Below, piece by piece: positions 44,156-63,417 of a stretch of DNA of 64,000 nucleotides (positions are counted from its first letter, which is position 1; the number at the start of each line of letters is the position of its first letter). The position numbers and the translations under genes are program-made. The stretch lies in assembly GCF_963675585.1 (NCBI RefSeq), contig NZ_OY776414.1, positions 3,017,001 through 3,081,000 of the forward strand. The letters run 5' to 3'. The notes under the pieces are model-generated. The model was given only the letters and a program-made list of their open reading frames with translations. It searched no databases and was not told where the DNA came from. The DNA comes from an uncultured Draconibacterium sp. Its GTDB lineage: Bacteria > Bacteroidota > Bacteroidia > Bacteroidales > Prolixibacteraceae.

Positions 44156-45292
44156 CTACCAGAAATCGGGTTTTTCATTACTTCCATAATTCCTGCAATC
44201 GGCACAAAATGCACTTCGAGCATAAAAATAATTTACAAAATGATAGCCGCCCGGATCAGATACATAAAGACAGTCTTCGTAAAAATTAGCTGCAGGAACC
44301 GAATGATCGTACTTTTCAATAAAAATTCGTTTGCTTTTTGCATCAACGGCATTAAAATACCCCAGAGCCTGCCCTTCTCCGTCGGAGCTACTTATATTCC
44401 CGTAAACTGAACTTGGCACCTGATCGTACAACGAACCGGCACTTTCATTTATGTCTTTCAGCTTGTTCCAAAAGGTATACATTTCTTTACTAATGCTATA
44501 CTGACGTACCTTTATCGAATAGCGGAAAAATAAACGATCATCGTATTCACCAATCCGAAGTATCGTAAATTTACTTACGGTGCTTTCAGTTTGATTGGCA
44601 ACTGTTTTTACCAGAATATTTGACTGAGGACGTGACACCCAGCAATATTTTTTCTCGTCGGGAACTTTAACAGTTGTTTCGTAAGGCATTCCATAACCGT
44701 CGAGTGCCGTGATGGTATTGGGCATCATAACCTCAAAAGTTTCTACAAAATCCCACTGATAATAATTTGTATTGCCACTTGCATCATCGGAATTCACAAA
44801 AATATCGAGTGCCTTTTTTGTTATGGCTTCATTTTCTTCGAAAACGACTGTCTCGGCCTCTTCAAAATCCAAATCGCCAATCTCGGGTGATTGCTGCACT
44901 AAAACCGGCGACGATTCATAATTCACTCCGGCAGCATCAGTAATAAACAATTGATATGTAACTCCTATTTCTGCTTTGGCATTGTCATCGTTTGCTCTGT
45001 ATATTCCCGGTTCAGCTTCCCAAAGATCATAACGCTGGTTCCGGTCGTCGAGGATGTAAACACTGGCACCGGTTTCGCTTGTAAAATTTGGCATTGTATC
45101 GAGTGGCACCGACCTGCGTAATTCAACGTTAAACGATCCGGGCTCAGTTGTTATCAAACCATCGACAACAAGGATGGTCTGTGCATCTTCTTCGTTCAAT
45201 TTTGGTCGATAAGGATCAACACAGTTTTCTAATAATAAGCCTAACAAGAAGCAAAGAAGAAAAATTTGATATGTAAACTTTTTTACTTTCAT
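44156..45292 (-). CDS. DUF4249 domain-containing lipoprotein
   Basis: 378 residues with an N-terminal hydrophobic segment and a Cys at 24 (LLENC), a weak lipobox followed by VDPYRPKLNEEDAQTILVVDGLITTEPG, the DUF4249 signature. The Bacteroidota-restricted family is usually encoded directly after a TonB-dependent receptor, as here: its ATG overlaps the receptor's stop codon by one base (TAATG). Probably a surface substrate-binding partner, functionally analogous to SusD (inference). The substrate is unknown. Confidence 0.87.
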   Translation of the reverse strand: MKVKKFTYQIFLLCFLLGLLLENCVDPYRPKLNEEDAQTILVVDGLITTEPGSFNVELRRSVPLDTMPNFTSETGASVYILDDRNQRYDLWEAEPGIYRANDDNAKAEIGVTYQLFITDAAGVNYESSPVLVQQSPEIGDLDFEEAETVVFEENEAITKKALDIFVNSDDASGNTNYYQWDFVETFEVMMPNTITALDGYGMPYETTVKVPDEKKYCWVSRPQSNILVKTVANQTESTVSKFTILRIGEYDDRLFFRYSIKVRQYSISKEMYTFWNKLKDINESAGSLYDQVPSSVYGNISSSDGEGQALGYFNAVDAKSKRIFIEKYDHSVPAANFYEDCLYVSDPGGYHFVNYFYARSAFCADCRNYGSNEKPDFW

Positions 45293-48027
45293 TAGAATTT
45301 AAAATTATAAGAGATGGTTGGAATGGCGGTTGCAAATATCGATAACTGGTATCCGGCAAAGGTATCTCCCTCGCTTCTGAAGAATACAGAATACGCATTT
45401 TTACGGGCCGTAATGTTGTAAATGGCAAACGTAAGCGAACTGTCTATTTTTTTGTTTGCTTTCAAATTGCCTTCAAAGGTTACTGAAACATCCATTCTAA
45501 AATAATCAGGAATACGGTACTGATTGTATTTTGAATAGTGCAGAATTACCTGATCGCCCAATTGATATTTGGCCACAGGATAAGTTATCGGACGTCCTGT
45601 TGAATAATTGATTGTAGACGACAACAGCAGCTTTCGAGAGGCTTTTACATTTACCAGCATATTCAAATTATGTGGTTTATCGTAGTTTGCCGGAAAATAC
45701 TCACCATCGTTTACCTGCTCCGATTCATACGGTGAGTCGGACTTAATTAAAGTGCGTAAATAAGCATAACTTAGTACCCCGTTTATTCGTCCGGTATTCT
45801 TTTTTAACGCAAATTCAAGACCGTATGATTTTCCTAAACCATTTAATATTTCCGTTTCAATATGATCGTTCAGCAGTAAGCTTGCACCGGGTTTGTATTC
45901 TTTCAGGTTTTCAATTCGTTTGTAGAATCCCTCAAGCGATGTTTCCACATCATTATTCCCGAAACTCTTAAAAAATCCAAGCGACACTTGATGACCAAGT
46001 TGTGGCGGAATATACTCGTCGCTAAGTTTCCAGGTATCGGTTGGCGAAATTGCCGTTGAGTTGGTTAAAATATGAATGTATTGAACCGTGCGGTTGTAAC
46101 TAAACTTTAGCGAAGTAGAATGTCGTAGCATATAGTTTGCAGACAAACGGAATTCGGGATAAAAATAGCGGGCTTTAACAGAATTCTCACCTCTGATTGT
46201 ATCAACAATATTGTCAATATCCAAAGGTTCGTTTTCGGCATACACATAACGGTAGCCATCATCGAACGATAAAAATCCCGACAAACGAACACCGGCTTCC
46301 ATCGACAACCTGCTCGACACCGGGAATTCCAATCCCACAAAGCCACCATACTCCAAAGCCTTTTCGTCGTTACTCGAAAATGGTTGCAAATTGGCCCCCT
46401 CGGGAATTACCTTTTCTCCGGGATTAACGATGTAAGCATTTAACTGGGCACCAAAATTTAGTTTTAGCTCCTGGTTTATTTCAAATGTATTGCTGTTTTT
46501 AAATCCAGCATTTAAAACATCGTGAGTCATTGTATACGCCGACGCCGCATCCTTATCGCTCGAAATATTGTAGCCAAACATACTGTTGGTAAATAAAAAA
46601 TCGGACTGCCACTGGTCGTTGTATCTTAAATGATAATCGGCAGAAAGTATGGCATTTTTGTATTTGTACAATGTATCGCTGTGTAATTTGTACCGATCGT
46701 TACTGGTGTAGGCACTTAATTTCAATTGCGACTTATCGCTTAAATGCAGATTCACTTTTGCATGAATATCGCCAAAAGACACCGTACTATTGTACAAATC
46801 GGGTACGTTTATCATGTTCAGTACATAATCGGAATAGGTACTTCGGGCACTAAATGCAAATGTCGATTTCTTATAAATTGGACCATCAACTGCAATTTTT
46901 GCCGAGAGTGGGCTGATACCTCCATTTCCTCCAATTTCTTTTGTGCTGCCATCCTGCGTAATAATTTCGTACACCGACGAAATTCGGCCTCCAAACTGAG
47001 AAGGAATACTTCCTTTGTATAAAATGGCCTCTTTTACCATGTCGGAATTAACGGCTGAAAAGTTTCCAAAAAAGTGCGAAGGATAATACAAGGGTGCACC
47101 GTCCACCAAAATCAGGTTCTGATCGGTTTTTCCTCCTCGCACATTAAATCCCTGCGAACTTTCGCCAACGGTTTGAACACCCGGAATAAGCAGTGTGGTT
47201 TTCATTATATCGGGCTCACCCAAAAGTGCAGGAATTGACTTTATCATTTCTTCACTTATACGCTCCACTCCGGAACGTACATCACTCACTGTTTCTTTCT
47301 TATCTCCAAAAATTTCGATATCTCCAATTAAAGTAATTTTGGTTTCCAGTTCAACGTTCAAACTTCCATCGGAATAAATGTTGATTACCCTTTGTGTTGG
47401 TACGCGCCCCACGCTGCTAAATTGTAAGGTGTGGTTTCCTTTTTCAAGACGAAGTTCAAAGTTTCCTTTTTTATCGGTAGAAACACCTTTTGTGGTACCA
47501 GCAACAATTACGTTCCCGCTAACTATTGGCGATTTATCGTCGAAGGCCCGCAAATTTCCACGGAGTGTTACATATTTACTATTTGTTTGACCGGGTACAC
47601 CAATGTTTCGTATAATAAATTCCTGTTTGTGTAATTCGTCCAAATCTCTGTCGGCCAGTTCCGGAGTCTTATTTTCCTCCTCTAGAGGAACTGCAATATT
47701 GTAATCTTCGAGTACCGGCGTGCCCACATATACATAAATTTTGTTGTCAACACGTGTAAAATTGATTAGTAACTTCCTCCCTATTTCCTGCAAACAAACA
47801 TCTAAAAGTTCATTGCTAAACTGTGCATCAAACGTTCTTTCCGCTATTGATTTGCCAGAATAAAAGAAGGTAAAAGGATAGTTACGTTCCACTTCATTTA
47901 TAAAATCGCCTAAAGCAGTTTTCGAATAATTGCCTGTAATTTTAGGCAAATCGTTTTGGGCATGTACGGTTACCACAAGTAACAGAAAAACAAACAGTAA
48001 ACTTATATTTTTGATGGTCGACTTCAT
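45292..48027 (-). CDS. TonB-dependent outer membrane receptor with STN domain
   Basis: 911 residues: signal peptide (1-23), a secretin/TonB N-terminal (STN) domain (about 30-105, ISGNYS-like start, DVCLQEIGRKLLI), a carboxypeptidase-regulatory-like domain (about 155-235), plug (about 255-350, GGKTDQNLILVDGAPLYYPSH) and a beta-barrel ending in YNFKF. It imports a ligand through the outer membrane using TonB energy. STN domains normally signal to a FecR anti-sigma, yet no sigma/anti-sigma pair is adjacent. Four nt after the upstream gene and overlapping DUF4249. Confidence 0.9.
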   Translation of the reverse strand: MKSTIKNISLLFVFLLLVVTVHAQNDLPKITGNYSKTALGDFINEVERNYPFTFFYSGKSIAERTFDAQFSNELLDVCLQEIGRKLLINFTRVDNKIYVYVGTPVLEDYNIAVPLEEENKTPELADRDLDELHKQEFIIRNIGVPGQTNSKYVTLRGNLRAFDDKSPIVSGNVIVAGTTKGVSTDKKGNFELRLEKGNHTLQFSSVGRVPTQRVINIYSDGSLNVELETKITLIGDIEIFGDKKETVSDVRSGVERISEEMIKSIPALLGEPDIMKTTLLIPGVQTVGESSQGFNVRGGKTDQNLILVDGAPLYYPSHFFGNFSAVNSDMVKEAILYKGSIPSQFGGRISSVYEIITQDGSTKEIGGNGGISPLSAKIAVDGPIYKKSTFAFSARSTYSDYVLNMINVPDLYNSTVSFGDIHAKVNLHLSDKSQLKLSAYTSNDRYKLHSDTLYKYKNAILSADYHLRYNDQWQSDFLFTNSMFGYNISSDKDAASAYTMTHDVLNAGFKNSNTFEINQELKLNFGAQLNAYIVNPGEKVIPEGANLQPFSSNDEKALEYGGFVGLEFPVSSRLSMEAGVRLSGFLSFDDGYRYVYAENEPLDIDNIVDTIRGENSVKARYFYPEFRLSANYMLRHSTSLKFSYNRTVQYIHILTNSTAISPTDTWKLSDEYIPPQLGHQVSLGFFKSFGNNDVETSLEGFYKRIENLKEYKPGASLLLNDHIETEILNGLGKSYGLEFALKKNTGRINGVLSYAYLRTLIKSDSPYESEQVNDGEYFPANYDKPHNLNMLVNVKASRKLLLSSTINYSTGRPITYPVAKYQLGDQVILHYSKYNQYRIPDYFRMDVSVTFEGNLKANKKIDSSLTFAIYNITARKNAYSVFFRSEGDTFAGYQLSIFATAIPTISYNFKF

Positions 48028-50311: not shown

Positions 50312-53300
50312 TTAAAAGCCAATTTTAACATTGAAACCAAATGTTCTTGCTGTAGGATATGCACCACTCTCAATACCTTGCTTGTTACCAGAACTTAAAC
50401 CTGATTCAGGATCGAAATGTTCTGTATTTTTACTAATAATCCATAAGTTTCTACCCACTGCTGACAATGTAAGATTCTGAATTGGAGTATTGTTAAACCA
50501 AGCTTTTGGTAAAGTATACGCCAACGATACTTCACGTAATTTCAAATACGAAGCATCGAATACGTAACGTGCAGTTGGAGAATTGTTGTAGTAGAAAGCG
50601 CGTCCCCAACGACCTGAGTTGATCAAAATATCGTTTGGAGTTCCGTCAGCTTTTACACCAGGAAGAATGGTACCACCCGAGTTTGCTGCTGCATCGCTTA
50701 ATGCAACACCACCACTAAAGTTAGAGCCCATATCGCCGTCAGTTGCCGATACAACGTTATCACGCATTGGATTTCCCAAAACATTGTCTAAAGCAGTTTC
50801 AGCAAACACCCCAGTTGCCTGACCGTATTTTGTATTAACTGAGTAGATATCACCACCATGCTGCATGTCAAGCAAAATGTTCAGCGTTAAACTTTTGTAC
50901 GAGATTTTGTTAATTAAACCTGCATTCCAGTCAGGATTTACGTTACCAATCATTTCATCTTCTTTATCAGAAATCATGTAGTAACCATTTTCGTTAACTG
51001 TTGGTTGTCCGTTTGTATAAACAAAGTCGGTACCACGAATTACACCTGCGGCTTGTCCAACTGTATTGTTAATGGTAACATCCCATGCCGAGGTAAGTAG
51101 TAAGTTAGTTACTCCTTCGTATAAGCTGATAACTTCGTTTTTATTTTTAAACCAGTTTAAAGTTACGTCCCAAGAGAAATCGCTTGTTTTAACAGGAACA
51201 ACATTAACACTTAGCTCAATACCTTTGTTCTGAATTTCACCAGAGTTAACATATCTGCTGGTATAACCCGATGAACGAGAAACCAAAACAGGCATAATCT
51301 GATCGAATGAATTTGATTTATAAACTGCAAGGTCAAAACCTAATCTGTCGTTAAATAAACGAGCTTCCAAACCTGCTTCAACTGATTTTGTTCTTTCAGG
51401 TTTTAAATCAGGATTTTGTAATGTACTGTTTACAGAGAACAATGCCAGGTCGCCCCAGTTTGTACCTTGTGAGTAAGTTGATGTAGTACTGTAAATAGGA
51501 GCATCGTTACCAACTTCAGCATAGTTTAATCTGAACTTAGCAAAGTTCATCCAGCTTAAGTCTTTCATTCCACCCAGTTCTGATAAAATTAAACTACCAG
51601 AAATTGAAGGATAGAAATAAGCATTATTACCTGAAGGAAGAGTTGAAGAAACATCGTAACGACCGGTTACGTCAACATAAATAAAGTTGTTGTAACCAAC
51701 AGAACCTTGTGCATAAGCACTGTTCATTCCTTTTTCGTATAAGTCCTCGCTGATTGACACAGGAGAAACAGAGTTACTAATTGTATATAAGTCAGGAACA
51801 ATTAAACCACCCACAGTAGAACCTGTAGTTGACTCAATGTAACTTTGTCTGAAGTTACCCCCAACAACACCGTTCAAAGAGAAAGCATCGATAGTTTTGT
51901 TGAATTTCAACATGATATCTGTGTTACGCTCCATGAAAGTACGTGTACGTTTTGTAAAATCTGAGGTTCCGTTACTACCAACTGCTACACGCTCGTTCTG
52001 AATCTGAGTGTAGTAATCCAATGAAGTACGACCTGTGAAAGTCATCCAGTCGGTAAGTTTGTAGTTTAATGCCATGTAACCATAAAAACGGTCACGACCA
52101 TCATCCTGGAAGTTTTTGTAACGCACCCAATATGGGTTATCGAAATAAATTGGAACCAATTCATCGTAGTATGCGTAGTTCCATGTTCTTTGTCTTCCGT
52201 CAGGAGAAATATAATCTTCTTTCAGTCTCTTGAAATCAACGTTTGTTTCAATCCACTGACCGAAAGATTGCATAACGTTACCTTCGTCATAACCTGTTCC
52301 GTAACGACCAACAGCATCAGTTTTTACATAAGTAAGACTTGCGTCAACCGAAAGTTTATCAGTAAAGTTATGAAGCGCAGAAAAAGTAATTGTATTTTTC
52401 TTGATTTCAGAATTTGGAAGAATACCTTGTTCGTTTACATTAGTATACGAAAGTCTGAAACTTCCTTTGTCGTGTGCACCTTCGAAAGATACGTTGTTTG
52501 ATGTTTTAACACCAGTTTCGAAGAAATAAGTATAATCGTTTTCAGGAGCTACCCAAGGTCTTTTCTCACCAAATTTTGGAGAGGTTGGATCTAAAGCATC
52601 CCAGTGAACAACCATTAAGTTCGGATCGAAAGCAGCACCCCACGAAGCATCTTCAGAAGTTGGAGTGATTAAATCATCTGTTCCGTCACCATCAATATCA
52701 GCATAGAAGAAATAGCCGGTTGGGTCTTCGTAGAAAGCACCATAACCTGCACCATATCTTTTCTGATGTTTTGGCATTGTTGATTTGTCGGCAGTAGAAA
52801 TCTGAACCTGAGAATTAATAGTAACACCTAAACCTTTTTTGTGTTTACCTTTTTTGGTTGTAACAAGAACAACACCGTTTGCAGCACGAGAACCATAAAG
52901 AGCTGATGCAGCAGCACCTTTCAATACAGTAATCGACTCAATGTCATCAGGGTTAATATCCATAGCAGCGTTACCATAGTCATATCCACCCCAACCAGAA
53001 GTCTGGTCGTTGGTGTTGGTGTTCGAGTTATCAATTGGCACACCGTCAACTACGAATAAAGCCTGGTTGTTACCAGTTAACGAGGTAGTACCACGAATAA
53101 GGATATTTGACGAACCACCCATGGTATTTGACTGACGGATATTAACACCGGCCACTTTACCTGAAAGTGAATTCACAAAGTTGGTTTCCTTAACTTCACT
53201 AACAGCGTCTCCGCTTAACTCAGTGTTGGCAAAACCCAGTGATTTCTTTTCACGTTGAATACCTAATGCCGTAACTACCACCTCATCCACAGTGATGTCA

Positions 53301-53596
53301 GCATTTTCCATTTCAACATTAATGCTTGATCTACCATCAATCTCAATTTCTTGAGTAGCCATACCAACAAATGAATACAACAAAGTTGTAGCATCTTCTG
53401 GAGCTTTTAATGTGTAGTTTCCATCAATGTCAGTTACGGTACCTAGCGTAGTACCTTTCACAGAAACCGAAACCCCGGGAATAGATGAACCATCCTCAGC
53501 AGAAGTAACCGTACCGGTTAATGTCTTCGTTTGAGCATTAGCTACCATATTACCCATGAAAAGGAGAATCGATAAAAAAATCGCAATTTTTTTCAT
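50312..53596 (-). CDS. susC: SusC/RagA-family TonB-linked outer membrane protein
   Basis: 1094 residues: signal peptide (1-22), carboxypeptidase-regulatory-like domain (about 25-110, LTGTVTSAEDGSSIPGVSVSVKG), TonB plug (about 115-230, with ALFVVDGVPIDN and AASALYGSRAANGVVLVTTKKG) and a 22-strand-type barrel ending in FNVKIGF. Forms the transport barrel for the oligomer captured by SusD1. It has its own leader (53597-53750) carrying a G-rich-loop hairpin, and upstream of that a second, orphan susC-type leader. Confidence 0.96.
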   Translation of the reverse strand: MKKIAIFLSILLFMGNMVANAQTKTLTGTVTSAEDGSSIPGVSVSVKGTTLGTVTDIDGNYTLKAPEDATTLLYSFVGMATQEIEIDGRSSINVEMENADITVDEVVVTALGIQREKKSLGFANTELSGDAVSEVKETNFVNSLSGKVAGVNIRQSNTMGGSSNILIRGTTSLTGNNQALFVVDGVPIDNSNTNTNDQTSGWGGYDYGNAAMDINPDDIESITVLKGAAASALYGSRAANGVVLVTTKKGKHKKGLGVTINSQVQISTADKSTMPKHQKRYGAGYGAFYEDPTGYFFYADIDGDGTDDLITPTSEDASWGAAFDPNLMVVHWDALDPTSPKFGEKRPWVAPENDYTYFFETGVKTSNNVSFEGAHDKGSFRLSYTNVNEQGILPNSEIKKNTITFSALHNFTDKLSVDASLTYVKTDAVGRYGTGYDEGNVMQSFGQWIETNVDFKRLKEDYISPDGRQRTWNYAYYDELVPIYFDNPYWVRYKNFQDDGRDRFYGYMALNYKLTDWMTFTGRTSLDYYTQIQNERVAVGSNGTSDFTKRTRTFMERNTDIMLKFNKTIDAFSLNGVVGGNFRQSYIESTTGSTVGGLIVPDLYTISNSVSPVSISEDLYEKGMNSAYAQGSVGYNNFIYVDVTGRYDVSSTLPSGNNAYFYPSISGSLILSELGGMKDLSWMNFAKFRLNYAEVGNDAPIYSTTSTYSQGTNWGDLALFSVNSTLQNPDLKPERTKSVEAGLEARLFNDRLGFDLAVYKSNSFDQIMPVLVSRSSGYTSRYVNSGEIQNKGIELSVNVVPVKTSDFSWDVTLNWFKNKNEVISLYEGVTNLLLTSAWDVTINNTVGQAAGVIRGTDFVYTNGQPTVNENGYYMISDKEDEMIGNVNPDWNAGLINKISYKSLTLNILLDMQHGGDIYSVNTKYGQATGVFAETALDNVLGNPMRDNVVSATDGDMGSNFSGGVALSDAAANSGGTILPGVKADGTPNDILINSGRWGRAFYYNNSPTARYVFDASYLKLREVSLAYTLPKAWFNNTPIQNLTLSAVGRNLWIISKNTEHFDPESGLSSGNKQGIESGAYPTARTFGFNVKIGF

Positions 53597-53668
53597 AGAA
53601 ATAATTTTAAGTTATTAATAAACAGCTATAAAAAATATATATAGTTTTTTGTTTAACAGACCCGAACC

Positions 53669-53684
53669 CTACTCCCCCAAGTAG
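53669..53684 (-). promoter_or_regulatory. Leader hairpin with TGGGGG loop upstream of susC1
   Basis: On the - strand CTACT-TGGGGG-AGTAG: 5-bp stem and 6-nt loop, ending 72 nt before the susC1 ATG. The same geometry with a different stem occurs at 54059-54074 and in looser form at 62370-62388. It lies downstream of the promoter-like block near 53721-53750. Confidence 0.5.
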
Positions 53685-53720
53685 TTATGTCCGGTTCATT
53701 TTTTCTCACATTCCCTTCAA

Positions 53721-53754
53721 TTCGCAAGTGTTAAAAAACCTTAATGATGACAAA
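53721..53754 (-). promoter_or_regulatory. Promoter-like block of susC1
   Basis: On the - strand TTTG-N17-TAACACTTG, with the GTTAA half at 53730-53734 about 134 nt before the ATG. The TAACrCTTG segment is shared with the orphan leader block at 54121-54150. It probably contains the -33/-7 region or an operator; the assignment is inference. Confidence 0.4.
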
Positions 53755-53852
53755 CTTACAAAAAGAATTGAATTATTAAAATTTTTGTCTTGCATGCATC
53801 CCATTTTGCTATCATTTTGACAACGATTCGTTTTAAAATTAAAATAAAGAAA

Positions 53853-53917
53853 GCCAGGAGGATTTAAAATTCTACGAAGGGTAATTGTGAGTAAATGTAG
53901 AGTGATTACCTCCTGGC
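53853..53917 (-). ncRNA. Repeated structured element, copy 1
   Basis: A perfect 9-bp outer stem GCCAGGAGG (53853-53861) / CCTCCTGGC (53909-53917) encloses a 47-nt loop that contains the 18-nt block AATTCTACGAAGGGTAAT, then Y-GTG-R-GTAA, also found in copy 2 (54679-54748). An inner helix TCTAC/GTAGA (53871-53875 / 53897-53901) is possible. The strand is uncertain; the - strand is favoured because both copies are followed there by CTTTCTTT-like tracts, as in a terminator. It sits 256 nt upstream of susC1 and 79 nt downstream of an orphan susC-like ATG. No known RNA family was recognised. Confidence 0.5.
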
Positions 53918-54058
53918 CATACTTTATAAAAAAATGTTTTTTGAATATTTTCAGATTACGAATAAATCTTAAAATAGATTCTACATCCCCCTTCATAGAA
54001 ACAGTTTTAATAAACAATTAAACAGCGTATAAAAATGTATTGACTCTAAATGAAACCT

Positions 54059-54074
54059 GGATTCCCCCAAATCC
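54059..54074 (-). promoter_or_regulatory. Leader hairpin with TGGGGG loop in the orphan susC-type leader
   Basis: On the - strand GGATT-TGGGGG-AATCC: same 5-bp stem and identical loop as the hairpin before susC1 but with four of five stem pairs changed, consistent with a selected RNA structure. It ends 62 nt before the orphan ATG. Confidence 0.5.
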
Positions 54075-54125
54075 GGTACTCACAATTACCTTAATTCTTT
54101 CAATCGTTATTTTAAAATAACAAGC

Positions 54126-54150
54126 GTTAATTTTTTTAACAATTGCAAAT
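54126..54150 (-). promoter_or_regulatory. susC-type promoter/operator block shared with susC2
   Basis: GTTAATTTTTTTAACAAT (+ strand) plus CAAAT two bases later; 23 of 25 bases are identical to 62448-62472. Read on the - strand it gives TTTG-N16-TAACGCTTG, compatible with a Bacteroidota -33/-7 region containing a GTTAA-N5-TTAAC palindrome. It ends 130 nt before the orphan ATG. The stretch 54151-54678 is AT-rich with no gene or further element recognised. Confidence 0.5.
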
Positions 54151-54678
54151 ATTGAAAAAAAATCGTAATCAGAAAACATTTGTAAGTTTTTTTTCATTTT
54201 CGCTTACAATTTGAAAGTTACAACCAAAAAAAAACACATCGTATTATTTACATATGTTTATTTGTGAATCCAACAAATTAGAATGTGAATTGTTTACAAC
54301 AACAACTAAACTTTATCAAAACCCTCTATTTTAGCCACTTTATAAAACGCAGGCTAATTTCAAAAAAACTTTAGCGTTTATAAAACATATTCTTGCTGGA
54401 ACATTTTTTTATTAATTATGATTATTGTCATTTATTTACAATTTAACAATATCATAAACACTTTTATTACTTTGGTAAGGTAACAGTAACACTTGGTTGG
54501 TTCTCTCTCGTTTGCAGCATCAAAACCGATAGAAATCTAATTGAACTCTTACTTCTTAATCGATCTATTCAGAATTGTACAAAACAGAATCAGGCGACAC
54601 CTCTTTTAACGTGTCAAACCGTAACTGACAAGTATTAAGTGACTGGAGAAGAAAAAAAAAGGCTTTAAACCTAAAAGA

Positions 54679-54748
54679 AACCGGGAGGTCTAAATTCTAC
54701 GAAGGGTAATCGTGGGTAATATAGAGAGTGAGTAATTTCCTCCCGGTT
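54679..54748 (-). ncRNA. Repeated structured element, copy 2
   Basis: 10-bp stem AACCGGGAGG (54679-54688) / CCTCCCGGTT (54739-54748) around a 50-nt loop with the same 18-nt block AATTCTACGAAGGGTAAT as copy 1. The stem differs from copy 1 at two paired positions with compensation on both sides (A-T to G-C, G-C to A-T). On the - strand it overlaps the first bases of the arylsulfotransferase stop codon and is followed by TTTCTTTT, so it could work as the 3' end of that operon. No known RNA family was recognised. Confidence 0.5.
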
Positions 54749-56789
54749 AATATTTTACAATTTTTTTTGCATAGCTATTATTTGTGGTGTGCGCAATAAA
54801 TAAATATATGCCGCCTGGTAATTTCGACAAATCGATTTCTGCATAACGCATCGCTCCATAAACAGAATCGTTTATTACAACTGCCCCGTTTCCGTTAATT
54901 ATCTGATACGTAAATCCATCAGATTCGTTTGATACTGTCACCATTAATCTGTCTTTAACAGGATTAGGATAAACTTCTAATCCAGCATTATTTTTATTGC
55001 TCCCGGCAGATGTTATTGTTGTTGAGAACTGGGCGGTAAACACACTTAATTCATTCCCCGCGAAATCGCTCAGTCCGCTTTTAAGCTGTACAAAGTAAAC
55101 GGTCCCTATTTTTAATTCCTCATCCGGAACAATGGTAACCAATGTTTTGTCGGCACTTATTACAGCGTTACACGGTATTAATTCTCCGGCAATATTGTTT
55201 TTGCGTACTTCAACAAAGGCATCAATTGACTCGTAATTGAGTTCGCCACCATTTATCAACTGTATTTTTTCACTTAGCTGAATTCGTATTTTCTCGTTCA
55301 AAGCCACATTCGATTGTCCTGAAACCAGCTGTGCCACGGGAGAAATATTATCTGATTTTCGACCATTTACTTTTACCTGACGTGCAATACGTTGCTCTTC
55401 CGTGTCGCAGGCAATTGTCAGCACATCATCAAAATATCCCGTTTCCGAATTTCCCGGATTAAACCAGAAATCAAGTTTTACCGAATCACCACTCACTAGC
55501 AAAACTGGAAGCATAGTATTAATTCCAAAATTTTCAGTTCGCGATTCAACTGTTGTTATCTGAATGCTGTCGGGTGAATTATTTTTAAACCACAAACTTT
55601 GAGTTAAAGTATCGCTTTCCCAAGTTCCAAATGTAATCGAGTCGGAACTGCTTGAAAAAACCTTTGTTTCCCAAATGTATTTCTCAATTCTGGGACAAAA
55701 ACTGTGTTTTGTAAAATCCCACTCAAGGGCAGGCGAGCCATCGGGATTAAACTCGGTTAACGATGGCCAATATGGTCCCCAGTTAATGATTGTATTTCCG
55801 TTATGAATACGTTGCGTAGTACCTTGATGATTGCTGTAAACAGTGGGATTTCGGTAAAATCGTTTAACCAGAGTTGCTGTTTTATCCATTTCATCGATTT
55901 CGTATTCTACAGCACTCGATATCTTTTCAGCATGCAAATTTCCATTGTCGAACAGCAAAATATGGCCATTCGGCAGTGCACGTACACTATGTTGATGCGA
56001 GAATCCGAGCTCGTCGTTTACAAATTCAAATTGATTGTTTTTACCGCCAAGTCGCCAAATGAGTTCACCCGTACGTCTGTCAATCTTTGTTATCTCATCC
56101 ATGTGTCGGCACGAAATAAGATAACTTGTATCCGTATCAATTGAAATGGCATTGGCATGAACATAATCCAGCTGTTCTTCGGTGTAATCCAAATATGGTG
56201 AGTTATCATTTCCGTCAAACAGGTCAAAATGATCGGCACTGCTCCAGTTGTGTAACAAATTGAAATCCCTATCAAACTCCTGAACTACAAGATCAAGAAT
56301 TTCAGCCTGTACATTACCACCTTCAATCAATTGACTCATGTCTTTAACAGAACTAATTTCACCCATTAAAACTACATTCCCTTTAATGTCAACATCCCAA
56401 TCGTGTCCGTTGGGTTTTACCTCCTCTATCGAAAGTGTTTCAACCGGCGTCAGCCAGTCGTTTAAAATAAAAAGCTTTCGCGGCACACCATTCAAATAGG
56501 CAATTCGTCCGTCGGGTAACAAACACACCGAGCTGGTTGCCTTTTTCATTTTTCTAAAAAAGACGGGAGTGCCGTAATTATCAATAATTGCAATATAATG
56601 TGAAGCACCTGTTGCAGTGAGCCCTTTTGATCCCATAAAATAATAACCTTCGGCAGCGCCGTTCGATTCCAAATGCTCGATGGTTGGGAAAAAACTGACA
56701 ATGGAATTTTGCTGAGCAAATGCTTTCAGAGAACTACACACTACGCCCAAAGCAACTAATACAATTATGCCAATACTTCTACATTTCAT
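54747..56789 (-). CDS. Arylsulfotransferase (ASST)-like secreted protein with T9SS sorting domain
   Basis: 680 residues: signal peptide (1-25); ASST-type beta-propeller (about 35-375) with HDWDVD, YVHANAI, FSHQHSVRALPNGHILLFDNGN and SNHQGTTQRIHNGNTI, the His-containing motifs of PAPS-independent aryl sulfate sulfotransferases; an Ig-like choice-of-anchor domain (about 385-480); a Big_5-type Ig domain (about 490-595); and a type A T9SS C-terminal signal (about 605-680, LEVYPNPVKDRLMV ending KKIVKY). Expected to be exported by the type IX system and surface-bound. It lies 77 nt after the lipoprotein gene, beyond a terminator, so it may have its own promoter. Confidence 0.85.
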   Translation of the reverse strand: MKCRSIGIIVLVALGVVCSSLKAFAQQNSIVSFFPTIEHLESNGAAEGYYFMGSKGLTATGASHYIAIIDNYGTPVFFRKMKKATSSVCLLPDGRIAYLNGVPRKLFILNDWLTPVETLSIEEVKPNGHDWDVDIKGNVVLMGEISSVKDMSQLIEGGNVQAEILDLVVQEFDRDFNLLHNWSSADHFDLFDGNDNSPYLDYTEEQLDYVHANAISIDTDTSYLISCRHMDEITKIDRRTGELIWRLGGKNNQFEFVNDELGFSHQHSVRALPNGHILLFDNGNLHAEKISSAVEYEIDEMDKTATLVKRFYRNPTVYSNHQGTTQRIHNGNTIINWGPYWPSLTEFNPDGSPALEWDFTKHSFCPRIEKYIWETKVFSSSSDSITFGTWESDTLTQSLWFKNNSPDSIQITTVESRTENFGINTMLPVLLVSGDSVKLDFWFNPGNSETGYFDDVLTIACDTEEQRIARQVKVNGRKSDNISPVAQLVSGQSNVALNEKIRIQLSEKIQLINGGELNYESIDAFVEVRKNNIAGELIPCNAVISADKTLVTIVPDEELKIGTVYFVQLKSGLSDFAGNELSVFTAQFSTTITSAGSNKNNAGLEVYPNPVKDRLMVTVSNESDGFTYQIINGNGAVVINDSVYGAMRYAEIDLSKLPGGIYLFIAHTTNNSYAKKIVKY

Positions 56790-59192: not shown

Positions 59193-62100
59193 TTAAAATT
59201 TTAATTCAAGAGATGCCGAGAAAGACCTAAAGTTAGGATACCCCATAAAATCGTAAGCATAAATTTGCGTACCGTTTGTAGTACCAACCTCAGGATCGAA
59301 ACCTGTGTAATTGGTAAAAGTTAATAAGTTACGTCCAATTACCGACAATTTTGCACCTTTCAAAAATCCCAGAGCTACTTTACTTAATGTTTTTTGAGTG
59401 GCATTGTAAGACAACGACAATTCACGTAGTTTTACGTAAGTTCCATCTTCAATCCAAAAATCATTAAAGTCGTTTACATCATAAAACGCTTTATAGTAAT
59501 CAATAGTTTTCTTTTCATTTTCAGGTTTTCCTGCCTGATCCATCATTCCATGACGGTCGTCGCGGGTTAACCACTGAGCTGTTTTATTATAGATATCACC
59601 GCCCTGTTTCCAATCGAACAAGAAGTAAAGAGAGAAATCTTTGTACGTTAATGTAGAAGAGAATCCCATTTTAAAATCAGGATTTGAATCACCAATTTTT
59701 GTAAATGCCATTTTTCCTTCTTCGTCAAGTAATTTAATTGGCGCTTCCATGGTAGTACCTTCGGTACCAGCTAAAATTACAAAACCATCAGCATTTACAG
59801 TATAATCTGCAACAGTTCCCGACATAAAATCTATTTGATTCGCTAATTCATCCATTGAGGTAAGGAAATGTGCACCATACATTACACCAAATGTTTCATT
59901 TTCGCGGATATAGAAACACTTATTTGCTTCTTGTCCTTCAGGTCCTGTTTGATAGGGAGGAATATTTAATTCAGTAATTTTATTCCTGTTTCTGTCGAAT
60001 ACAATATTTGCAGTCCACGAGAAATCACTACTTTTTACTATTTGTGCACTTAACGAAGCTTCAATAGTTTGCGATTCCATTGTACCTGCATTTACCCACT
60101 GAGTTCTCCAACCATTGGCAAACGATGCCTGAGGAGCTTGTAAGAATTGGTCTTCCGTAATTCCTTTTGCGTAAATCGCTTCAAAACTAAATCGGTTTAA
60201 GAAATCGATATTCAAACCAACTTCAACTTCACTTGTCCGTGATGGTTTTAGGTCTTTATTTCCTTTGTAGTTTTTAGAAGCCACACCATTACTAACCGAC
60301 ATTACTTCGTATTGAGCCGAGAACGGAGGTCTTTGTCCGGCAGTACCATAAGCAGCACGCAACTTCATTTCCTGTACATTGTTAATTTTGAAATCTTCAG
60401 AAATCCTCCAGGCTCCAGATACACGATAGTATGACTGCCATCTTTCGTTTTCTCCAAATAATGAAGAACCATCATAACGGTACATACCATCAAAAATGTA
60501 TTTGTCTTTGTAGTCCATATAAAGAATACCAAAAACATTGTTGGCAACAACTTGATTTTGGTACGATGTTGAAGAAATGTTACCTTTTATAGCATCGAAA
60601 CTAGGTACTTTTTGAACTCCAAAATCGTTACCTGTTGAAGAAAAACTTTGGAATTCTTCGTTTTCGTATAAATAACTGGCTTTAGCCCTTAGGTTAATGT
60701 CACCAATATTTTTTGAATAGAACAGGTTGGCCTGTGCTCTTTCAGAAAAACGTTTTGAAGAATATTTATAATACTGACCTTCCGAATAAATTGGAGATCC
60801 ACTACTTGTAGTATAAGTATCATAAGGTGCAAAATAGGTATTTATCTCTGTTGTATTTTCAAAAGAATATTCTCCCTTAAATTTTAAATCAGTAATAATT
60901 TCCCAGTTTAAAGCATAACTACCTAAGAATCTGTCTCTCTCAAGATTGTCTTCTTGTTTCCAAAGGTTATACAATGGGTTAGTTGTTGTTGCCTGCCATG
61001 GATCCGGAATATACTGATAAGGTTGTCCGTCAGGATTTTCGGCCATTAAATCAACATCAGGTGCAGTTAATAAGAGGTTAAAAAATACTCCACCATTCGA
61101 TTTGTTGTCTCCACCCGGATAATTTTGTGTTGCTTTTACAAACAAGTTACTTGCCGAAACAGAAACTTTGTCTGAGATCCGGTGATCGATATTCATCCTG
61201 TAACTGTTCCTTGAATAACCGTCAGTGTCAAAAAGAATACCTCCGTGTTTGTAATTTTCAAACGAAGCAAGGAAATTTGTATTTCCGGTATTGTTCTGAA
61301 CACTCACATAATTAGTGTAAAACTCACTACCCGAGAACATTTCATCCTGGTGATCGATATACATCCCATAAGGATTATCCATGTAATGATTAGCTTTCAA
61401 TACTGGCGATCCTGAAATATCAGCACTGTAACCTCCGGTATATCCTGCGGGATAAGTTACACCGGCATACTTTGTATAAGTACTTACACTTTGCCAATCG
61501 TCAGCAAGATTAAAAGCATGCGATTGAGAAAGGTCGTAGCTGTTTGCCACACGGTTTACACCATATTCGTTACGAACAGTAACTATAGTTTCGCCACTTG
61601 CCAAACCTTTACCACGTTTAGTAGTTACAACAACTACACCATTACCTGCCTGCGAACCATAAAGAGCCGATGCAGAAGCACCTTTTACAACCTCAATTGA
61701 TTCAATATCATCAACGTTAATATCAGCCAGGGTACCCGACATCATAACACCGTCAACAATAATAAGTGGGCTTTGACTACCCGAAATCTGTGTAGCACCA
61801 CGAACCAGAATAGTAGAACTAGAACCAGGTTCACCGGTTGAACTTGTTACAGTAACACCGGCCATTTTTCCCTGAAGCGCTCCGGCTGCAGAAGAAGCTG
61901 GAACTTCTTTAAGTTCGCTTTCGCCAACTTTACCTACTGAAACTGACAGTTTCTTTCTTGGTGTATCGGCTGATACCCCAGAAACAATTACCTCGTCAAT
62001 CCCAAAAACGTCAGGTTGTAAGGTTACATTGAAAGTTGATTGGTTTCCAATGGCTACCTCAACTGTTTTCATCCCAACGAATGAAATCATCAACATTTTT

Positions 62101-62306
62101 GCATCCGCAGGAACTTTCAAATTAAAGTTACCATCAATATCGGTAACTGTTCCCAATGTAGTTCCCTTAACCATAATTGATGCGCCCGGAATTGTAGAAC
62201 CATCTTCAGAGCTTGTTATCACTCCTGAAAGATCCTTCGTTTGCGCATAAAGCGATTGTACTCCAATAAAAAGCACAACTGCAATCAACAGCATGATTTT
62301 TTTCAT
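59193..62306 (-). CDS. susC: SusC/RagA-family TonB-linked outer membrane protein
   Basis: 1037 residues: signal peptide (1-21), carboxypeptidase-regulatory-like domain (about 25-108, DLSGVITSSEDGSTIPGASIMVKG), plug (about 115-225, PLIIVDGVMMSG, ASALYGSQAGNGVVVVTTKRG) and a large beta-barrel ending in SASLELKF. Transport partner of SusD2. Its first 110 residues are very close to SusC1, but the barrels diverge, so different ligands are expected. Upstream region holds a G-rich-loop leader hairpin, a promoter/operator block and direct repeats. Confidence 0.96.
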   Translation of the reverse strand: MKKIMLLIAVVLFIGVQSLYAQTKDLSGVITSSEDGSTIPGASIMVKGTTLGTVTDIDGNFNLKVPADAKMLMISFVGMKTVEVAIGNQSTFNVTLQPDVFGIDEVIVSGVSADTPRKKLSVSVGKVGESELKEVPASSAAGALQGKMAGVTVTSSTGEPGSSSTILVRGATQISGSQSPLIIVDGVMMSGTLADINVDDIESIEVVKGASASALYGSQAGNGVVVVTTKRGKGLASGETIVTVRNEYGVNRVANSYDLSQSHAFNLADDWQSVSTYTKYAGVTYPAGYTGGYSADISGSPVLKANHYMDNPYGMYIDHQDEMFSGSEFYTNYVSVQNNTGNTNFLASFENYKHGGILFDTDGYSRNSYRMNIDHRISDKVSVSASNLFVKATQNYPGGDNKSNGGVFFNLLLTAPDVDLMAENPDGQPYQYIPDPWQATTTNPLYNLWKQEDNLERDRFLGSYALNWEIITDLKFKGEYSFENTTEINTYFAPYDTYTTSSGSPIYSEGQYYKYSSKRFSERAQANLFYSKNIGDINLRAKASYLYENEEFQSFSSTGNDFGVQKVPSFDAIKGNISSTSYQNQVVANNVFGILYMDYKDKYIFDGMYRYDGSSLFGENERWQSYYRVSGAWRISEDFKINNVQEMKLRAAYGTAGQRPPFSAQYEVMSVSNGVASKNYKGNKDLKPSRTSEVEVGLNIDFLNRFSFEAIYAKGITEDQFLQAPQASFANGWRTQWVNAGTMESQTIEASLSAQIVKSSDFSWTANIVFDRNRNKITELNIPPYQTGPEGQEANKCFYIRENETFGVMYGAHFLTSMDELANQIDFMSGTVADYTVNADGFVILAGTEGTTMEAPIKLLDEEGKMAFTKIGDSNPDFKMGFSSTLTYKDFSLYFLFDWKQGGDIYNKTAQWLTRDDRHGMMDQAGKPENEKKTIDYYKAFYDVNDFNDFWIEDGTYVKLRELSLSYNATQKTLSKVALGFLKGAKLSVIGRNLLTFTNYTGFDPEVGTTNGTQIYAYDFMGYPNFRSFSASLELKF

Positions 62307-62700: not shown

Positions 62701-63417
62701 TTAAAGTATCGTTTTTAGTTCAAGCAAATGAGTAAAACAATACAAGGTATTTTTGTATTTATTTGAACGTGGATTCATAATCCCTCTTTTTTCGGCCGAA
62801 TAATACACCGAATCGATCCCAAATTTTAGTGCACCAATGATATCAACGTCCCAATCGTCTCCTATCATTAAACTCCTGCCCTTTTTTGCATTGCTTGATT
62901 TAATTGCATGCTCAAAGATTAAATGTCCGGGTTTTGGGCATTTTAGCTCTTCCGAAATAAAAACCTTCTCGAAAAAGGGAGCTAAACCTGAACTATGTAG
63001 TTTTTTATGTTGAACTTCAGAAAACCCGTTTGTAATTATGAATAATTTGTATCGCTCTTTTTTAAGGTATTCCAGCACATCTATAGTACCCGGTACCAAT
63101 ACCTTTTGTTTGGGCATTTCAGCCAGGTAAGCCGAATTCATTTCATCTGAATCGATGCCGGTAATTTGAAGCTGATCGAAAGTTAACTGAAAACGTTTCC
63201 GGGTGAGTTCTTTTTTAGAAATCTCTTTCTTCCGGTATGCTGCCCAAAGCAAATGGTTGATTTCTGAATACACATCAAAGAATTCGTCGAAAGTCCGATT
63301 CTGATTACCAATACCAAAAGCATGAAAAGTAATTTCCATGGTTAATTTTGAATTTTGCTTAAAATCCCATAAAGTATTGTCCAGATCGAAAAATAGATGC
63401 GTGTATTTCTTATTCAC
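62701..63417 (-). CDS. yjjG: YjjG-family HAD hydrolase (noncanonical pyrimidine nucleotidase)
   Basis: 238 residues of HAD subfamily I. Motif I DLDNTLWDF (nucleophile D11, acid D13), motif II ITNGFSE, motif III lysine in CPKPGHLIFE and motif IV MIGDDWDVDI are all present, with a helical cap between motifs I and II. Family members dephosphorylate pyrimidine and noncanonical nucleotides in the cytoplasm. The YjjG assignment rests on overall pattern and length; another HAD phosphatase cannot be fully excluded. 33 nt after the SGNH hydrolase gene on the same strand. Confidence 0.82.
   Translation of the reverse strand: MNKKYTHLFFDLDNTLWDFKQNSKLTMEITFHAFGIGNQNRTFDEFFDVYSEINHLLWAAYRKKEISKKELTRKRFQLTFDQLQITGIDSDEMNSAYLAEMPKQKVLVPGTIDVLEYLKKERYKLFIITNGFSEVQHKKLHSSGLAPFFEKVFISEELKCPKPGHLIFEHAIKSSNAKKGRSLMIGDDWDVDIIGALKFGIDSVYYSAEKRGIMNPRSNKYKNTLYCFTHLLELKTIL

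Follow-up and report, generated by a model that had tools for sequence, protein, structure and literature searches.

A hairpin with the form of an intrinsic terminator, which occurs twice in the 64-kb window (the whole stretch of DNA analysed here), is probably the 3'-terminal domain of a regulatory antisense RNA that is linked to susC genes and carries its seed in the terminator loop. An antisense RNA acting on susC translation is the best single reading because of the specificity of the loop for linked susC starts and because of the linkage itself. In its fullest form, this best single reading would make the terminator both the 3' end and the seed carrier of the antisense RNA, as well as an attenuator where it lies in a susC leader.

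Copy 1 (53853-53917, minus strand) lies upstream of SusCa (50312-53596, minus strand), a TonB-dependent receptor with CarbopepD_reg_2 and plug domains, and copy 2 (54679-54748, minus strand) lies at the 3' end of the arylsulfotransferase-like gene that closes the operon of the SusCb type, SusCb being the second linked susC (59193-62306, minus strand). The closing stems pair 53853-53861 with 53909-53917 (9 bp) and 54679-54688 with 54739-54748 (10 bp); on the minus strand their arms read GCCAGGAGG/CCTCCTGGC and AACCGGGAGG/CCTCCCGGTT, each followed by a T-rich run. Both loops contain the 18-mer AATTCTACGAAGGGTAAT, at 53868-53885 and 54693-54710, followed in each by Y-GTG-R-GTAA; these are the conserved loop stretches of the minus-strand element, that of copy 1 including ATTACCCTTCGTAGAA. 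An earlier note on this DNA had described two copies with perfect closing stems and a shared loop, the first upstream of a susC gene and the second at the stop codon of the last PUL gene, and its description is accurate: copy 2 shares two bases with the stop codon of the ORF at 54747-56789, and the two both-sided stem differences that it pointed out are real and keep the pairing (G-C versus A-T at the outermost pair, A-T versus G-C at the fourth). The protein encoded at 54747-56789, which ends the SusCb-type operon, has, besides its arylsulfotransferase-like part, an Ig-like domain and a C-terminal sorting tail of the secretion-system type. The same PUL contains a TonB-dependent receptor with a FecR C-terminal domain (45292-48027) next to a DUF4249 gene, and 62701-63417 encodes a HAD-type hydrolase, relatives of which are found upstream of the susC array in most of the fetched loci.

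With up to three mismatches, the 18-mer has two sites in the window versus 0.11 expected, and none of 100 shuffles gave two. The window's genome holds six such places, including both copies, versus nine for the reversed control, so that no copies are recognised in this genome beyond the two in the window. Folding is uninformative on the strand, since all four strands of the two copies exceed shuffles in folding stability (z -3.0 to -5.0). U-rich tails, the relatives and the direction in which the neighbouring genes run lead us to assign the element RNA to the minus strand, an assignment absent from the earlier note; the flanking susC, susD and arylsulfotransferase-like genes are likewise on the minus strand.

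A covariance-model search, which the earlier note had proposed, recovered further copies in relatives: 29 of 140 Prolixibacteraceae genomes matched at E <=0.01, and the 34 strong matches (E <1e-8) are distributed over 24 of the 140 genomes in three genera (20 of the 37 genomes of the genus, three in genus g16 and one in genus g22). A 27-nt loop pattern, searched with up to three mismatches, was present in 18 of the 37 genomes of the genus, with zero for the reversed control, and the named records containing the core belong to Draconibacterium and Maribellus, family Prolixibacteraceae; Draconibacterium orientale FH5T carries one copy. The stretches fetched for weak model matches (E 0.001-0.01) in G002, G006, G015, G022 and G110, and for a third, weak match in G013 (E 0.001-0.01), contained no core at up to two mismatches. 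In the order-level sample outside Prolixibacteraceae, the core with one mismatch was found in two of 392 other genomes (G280 and G344), and a search of viral contigs for the 18-mer returned none. Rfam, the other comparison that had been proposed, yielded no relevant match, whether gathering scores were applied to the window or an E limit of 5 to 53550-54800.

The 34 strong matches represent 32 distinct sequences, each with a GC-rich closing stem of 9-12 bp and a U-rich tail around a loop of about 50 nt. The loop core ACNATTACCCTTC(G/A)TAG is identical in 32/32 distinct copies, its N being A, G or T, and the base that follows it is A in 28 and G in 4. In all 32 the core sits inside the loop of a terminator-form hairpin, with 3-7 T in the 8 nt past the stem end of the alignment; the element is a terminator in form, with termination itself being predicted. 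The closing stem is paired in 96.3% of cells, versus 43.1-69.4% when it is slid. One stem pair is G-C in 25 copies, A-U in 5 and G-U in 2, and a second shows a single both-sided change, with row L037:9795 being off by one alignment column in these pair counts. Cells with a both-sided change exceed shuffles, only 1/500 of which reach the observed number, and the number of covarying stem pairs (2) does not, being reached by 204/500. Stem covariation is real but modest, and the conservation of the loop is the stronger signal. The view of the earlier note that this is a selected RNA, with a pairing-preserving stem and a conserved loop, is borne out. Its reliance on covariation as the signal of selection holds for the five both-sided changes and two G-U pairs at one position, but not for the number of pairs, which is as in shuffles. 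Its contention that this is not a plain terminator likewise stands in part: the form is that of a terminator, but the invariant antisense loop is unusual.

Of the copies that could be placed (33), 28 precede a susC start by 103-303 nt, all 28 on the strand of susC, and five lie at the 3' end of a SusCb-type operon (copy 2 and one each in loci L033, L035, L037 and L038); their orientation towards the operon is identical in all placed copies. Between copy 1 and SusCa, the sequence TAAGTTTG (53751-53758, minus strand) fits TANNTTTG, which we take to be the -7 promoter motif of Bacteroidota. Where the gap between hairpin and susC measures 274-303 nt, TANNTTTG is found 157-170 nt before the ATG in six of seven cases, including the window; where it measures 103-189 nt, the motif is found in none of 21. 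Altogether, 21 of the 28 upstream copies have no TANNTTTG between hairpin and susC. Because the presence of the motif splits with gap length, we distinguish two layouts. In the first, to which the window belongs, the motifs predict a separate upstream RNA followed by a susC with its own promoter-like motif; in the second, the hairpin seems to lie in a leader, from which susC would be reachable by readthrough only. A strict TANNTTTG within 600 nt upstream was present for a few copies only, so that any promoter of the element RNA is hypothetical. Locus L036, which overlaps L035, and locus L042, whose element is the same as that of L041, were excluded from the gap-motif counts, as well as from the start-pairing, ORF, second-arm and mRNA-fold counts below.

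The loop sequence UUCGUAGAA is complementary to the susC start UUCUAUGAA across the start codon, with one G-U pair that becomes Watson-Crick in the L127 copy, which has CAUAGA. In SusCa the predicted target is the start region TTCTATGAA (53592-53600, minus strand), and SusCb also has the TTCTATGAA start. Using one consensus loop and allowing G-U, at least nine contiguous pairs are formed with 38 of 40 susC starts versus 3 of 222 other starts in 23 loci; of the two exceptions among the 40, one is a gene truncated by the stretch end (L035) and the other has its start assigned too far upstream (L125). Pairing energies also differ between susC and other starts in these loci (Mann-Whitney 2.7e-16, for sequences that are related and not independent). 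For the window's genome, the susC-type set comprised 79 of 105 matches, with 24 dropped for having no start codon 15-60 codons before the domain. At least nine pairs are reached there by 4 of 53 unlinked susC-type genes, and by 6 of 55 callable ones: SusCa, SusCb, a third susC (C4:1080934) with a TTCTATGAAAAAAATTGCG start, and three weaker ones. Five places in this genome match ATTTCTATGAAAAAAATTG with up to two mismatches, two of which are not gene starts.

The duplexes between loop and susC start are AU-rich and moderate, ranging from -10.9 to -14.3 kcal/mol in the eight pairs tested. Equally good duplexes arise when the loop is shuffled (0-3% of draws) and when the target is (2-14%). A 20-kb scan ranked the susC start among the top five pairing sites in 0/22 loci. 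One non-susC start in the 23 loci reaches -20.3, and two unlinked susC-type genes reach -16.2 and -14.4, versus -13.0 for SusCa. The pairing of the loop with a stretch of the SusCa 5'-UTR, GAAGGGAATGTGAG, at -22.1, is at chance level, with 8.7% of shuffles as good. For the invariant ACCC of the loop, no convincing partner was found in g16 and g22, the other two genera, so part of the loop conservation is unexplained.

The start of the susC mRNA shows a predicted fold of its own. The AUG is predicted to pair with the CAU of codons 13-14 (UUCUAUGAAAA with UUUUCAUGGG) in 27 of 28 linked susC and in none of 11 unlinked susC of the same loci. Furthermore, in 19 of the 28 linked genes, and in none of the 11 unlinked ones, the second arm extends into GGGTAAT, the complement of the loop sequence ATTACCC, so that two adjacent loop segments match both arms. 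When loop and mRNA are cofolded, the gain is 3.9-9.5 kcal/mol for 27 of the 28 linked genes and 0.0 for L130. The stability of the fold is weak evidence, because 0.5-42% of synonymous recodings of linked susC are as stable. The first 45 nt or so of linked susC, although they lie in the signal-peptide region, are highly conserved, with an average DNA identity of 0.95-0.97 across 26 sequences and of 0.80-0.88 in the next 100 nt. The hairpin at the susC start may itself be the actual regulator, with the loop pairing being secondary. Six of the 11 unlinked susC fold more stably than nearly all recodings, through another structure that leaves the AUG free. Five susC genes with no element nearby (L033:7517, L040:4260, L043:4320, L044:4378 and L048:4347), with first codons far stabler than recodings and a free AUG, possibly carry another mRNA start structure.

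In the mechanism we propose for the antisense RNA, transcription would end at the U tract of the hairpin, and the released RNA, a short leader RNA in the case of copy 1 and a 3'-UTR-derived RNA in that of copy 2, would present the loop. UUCGUAGAA would then pair over the susC start UUCUAUGAA, and AUUACCC with GGGUAAU some 40 nt further in, where present. Ribosome entry would be blocked and the adjacent susC repressed, with the effect possibly reaching across tandem susCD units; repression appears appreciably likelier than activation. In the 21 of 28 upstream copies with no promoter motif between hairpin and susC, the hairpin would also be expected to serve as a conditional terminator in the susC leader. 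In Draconibacterium and Maribellus, ribosomes translating a short ORF, mostly with a susC-like start, could melt this terminator, and pairing of the loop to the short-ORF start could restore it. The earlier note had left the choice between a 3'-end element, a cis-acting switch and a small RNA; the evidence fits a small RNA, and it also fits a 3'-end element for copy 2 and a cis attenuator in many relatives.

In the window, the short leader ORF (53706-53996, minus strand) runs through copy 1 from an ATG at 53996-53994 in a susC-like context. The leader also contains the hairpin GGATTTGGGGGAATCC with a TTGGGGG loop (54059-54074, minus strand) and, just before it, GGTAATTGTGAGTA (54077-54090, minus strand), a perfect complement to 14 nt of the copy 1 loop; in Draconibacterium and Maribellus, most leader-type copies are preceded by such a susC-5'-like stretch, consisting of hairpin GGATTTGGGGGAATCC and then GCTGTTTAATTATTACTTAAAACTGTTTCTATGAAGGGGG. 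The copy 1 loop pairs with the leader start of the window at -26.0 (as good in 0/300 target and 1/300 loop shuffles) and with GGTAATTGTGAGTA at -26.7 (1/300 of each shuffle as good). The leader start ranked in the top five of the 20-kb scan for 14 of 22 loci with a pattern-defined element, and outside it for L032, L036, L038, L041, L042, L047, L048 and L130. Of 23 leader copies of the genus, 20 have an ORF that begins with ATG or GTG 107-123 nt upstream of the core and stays open across the hairpin; immediately before its start stands TTTCT (12 copies), TTCTGA or a close variant (7) or AATCT (1). No such ORF was found in the five operon-end copies or in the five copies from other genera. When the variable middle is shuffled, the frame stays open in 4-26% of draws for the 20 copies, and seven of eight groups drawn by eye are open (P 2.6e-7 if the groups are independent, with L045, which has no start, excluded). 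Since the ORF peptides differ among copies and the L038 copy is open in another frame, translation through the hairpin, and not its product, would be what matters. A conserved TTGGGGG-loop hairpin like that at 54059-54074 lies in the SusCa 5' region (53669-53684, minus strand), and further ones lie before other susC genes of these loci; the antisense reading leaves the TTTGGGGGAA hairpin unexplained. At the leader start (54126-54140, minus strand) there is a GTTAAAAAAATTAAC palindrome, which recurs near the leader starts of many relatives.

A more ambitious and tentative reading, which we consider possible though doubtful as a whole, would give one RNA two jobs: the leader terminator would be an attenuator read by ribosomes on the decoy ORF, and the terminated leader or operon 3' end would be antisense to the decoy start and to the start hairpins of the susC genes in the array, so that each stop would silence the neighbours. 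We consider it unlikely that the element is a purely cis-acting attenuator with no RNA acting in trans, in which translation of the upstream ORF, together with loop-leader pairing (GGTAATTGTGAGTA, GTTTCTATGAAGGG), would set the readthrough. Such an attenuator would account for the 21 of 28 upstream copies with no TANNTTTG in the gap, for a hairpin-spanning open frame in 20 of 23 genus copies when 4-26% is expected for each, and for leader pairings of -26.0 and -26.7 kcal/mol that at most 1/300 shuffles equal, but not for the promoter-like motif after the hairpin in the window's own susC, nor for the five operon-end copies, which have the same loop core without such a leader (ORF in 0/5 there and 0/5 in other genera). 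Leader-ORF attenuators in general place a short ORF and a terminator before the regulated gene, as the element does before susC. Unlike them, the element has an ORF that crosses the terminator, a peptide that is not conserved and a loop that is antisense to the start region; the open ORF, seen in 20/23 genus copies, is seen in 0/10 others, and the gap promoter motif that is absent from 21/28 is present in the window.

It is improbable that the loop serves as the site of an RNA-binding protein, for instance an RRM protein, instead of as an antisense seed: the core is invariant and single-stranded, its ACCC part is unexplained by pairing and the genome has two RRM_1 proteins, but the complementarity to linked susC (38/40 versus 3/222) would then be a coincidence. 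Far less credible is a DNA-level recombination site that swaps susC cassettes and leaves the conserved susC 5' ends as recombination tracts. Although DNA conservation is higher in these 5' ends than in the next codons and the susCD arrays are tandem, there is no recombinase among the 14 window proteins scanned, all placed copies are oriented alike towards the operon, and the compensatory stem and T-rich tail fit RNA. The very remote idea that the hairpin is part of the coding sequence of a conserved small protein, LTLHLLTITLRR, would explain the open frame of many copies, but was rejected because the synonymous sites of the core are invariant but for one, L038 is open in another frame and the ORF is lacking from 5/5 operon-end and 5/5 other-genus copies. 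An RNA-guided dCas12f-sigma system was also considered as a lead, and no such protein was found among the 14 window proteins scanned in Pfam.

The antisense RNA that we favour can be compared with several known regulators. OxyS and RNAIII are small RNAs with a seed in the terminator or apical loop; as in their usual descriptions, a 3' hairpin loop is here predicted to contact a start region, in another phylum and with other targets. In the FopS study (PMC11697453), the FopS small RNAs of B. thetaiotaomicron are described as a multi-copy family, deposited in Rfam, that pairs with susC translation starts and represses the susC mRNAs, with the seed in the single-stranded 5' part before the terminator, one 3'-UTR-derived member and antagonism by the RRM protein RbpB. 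Against that account, the element is similar in its predicted complementarity to susC translation initiation regions (38/40 versus 3/222) and, like the 3'-UTR-derived member, in the location of copy 2 at an operon 3' end. It differs in having its seed in the terminator loop (32/32 copies), in copies that adjoin their susC and in its Prolixibacteraceae host, and it has no Rfam match, which sets it apart from the FopS family provided that the Rfam searched includes the FopS model. By analogy, the element may work like FopS, without a family match. DonS-type RNAs are described in PMC7366714 as divergently encoded cis-antisense RNAs that are PUL-linked and act on susC homologues. Like DonS and DonS-like RNAs so described, the element is a PUL-linked RNA predicted to act on susC homologues; unlike them, it is on the same strand as susC in 28/28 upstream copies.

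Nutrition in Bacteroidota centres on SusC-like importers, whose control by RNA is known mainly from gut Bacteroides. If the proposed regulation is true, Prolixibacteraceae would have a separate solution, combining a seed in the terminator loop with a decoy start and, in the target, a hairpin at the start codon. Should the two jobs also be true of one RNA, the outcome would be an RNA-based hierarchical or exclusive expression of tandem SusCD importers. The element would offer a concrete case in which to ask how tandem SusCD paralogues avoid joint production.
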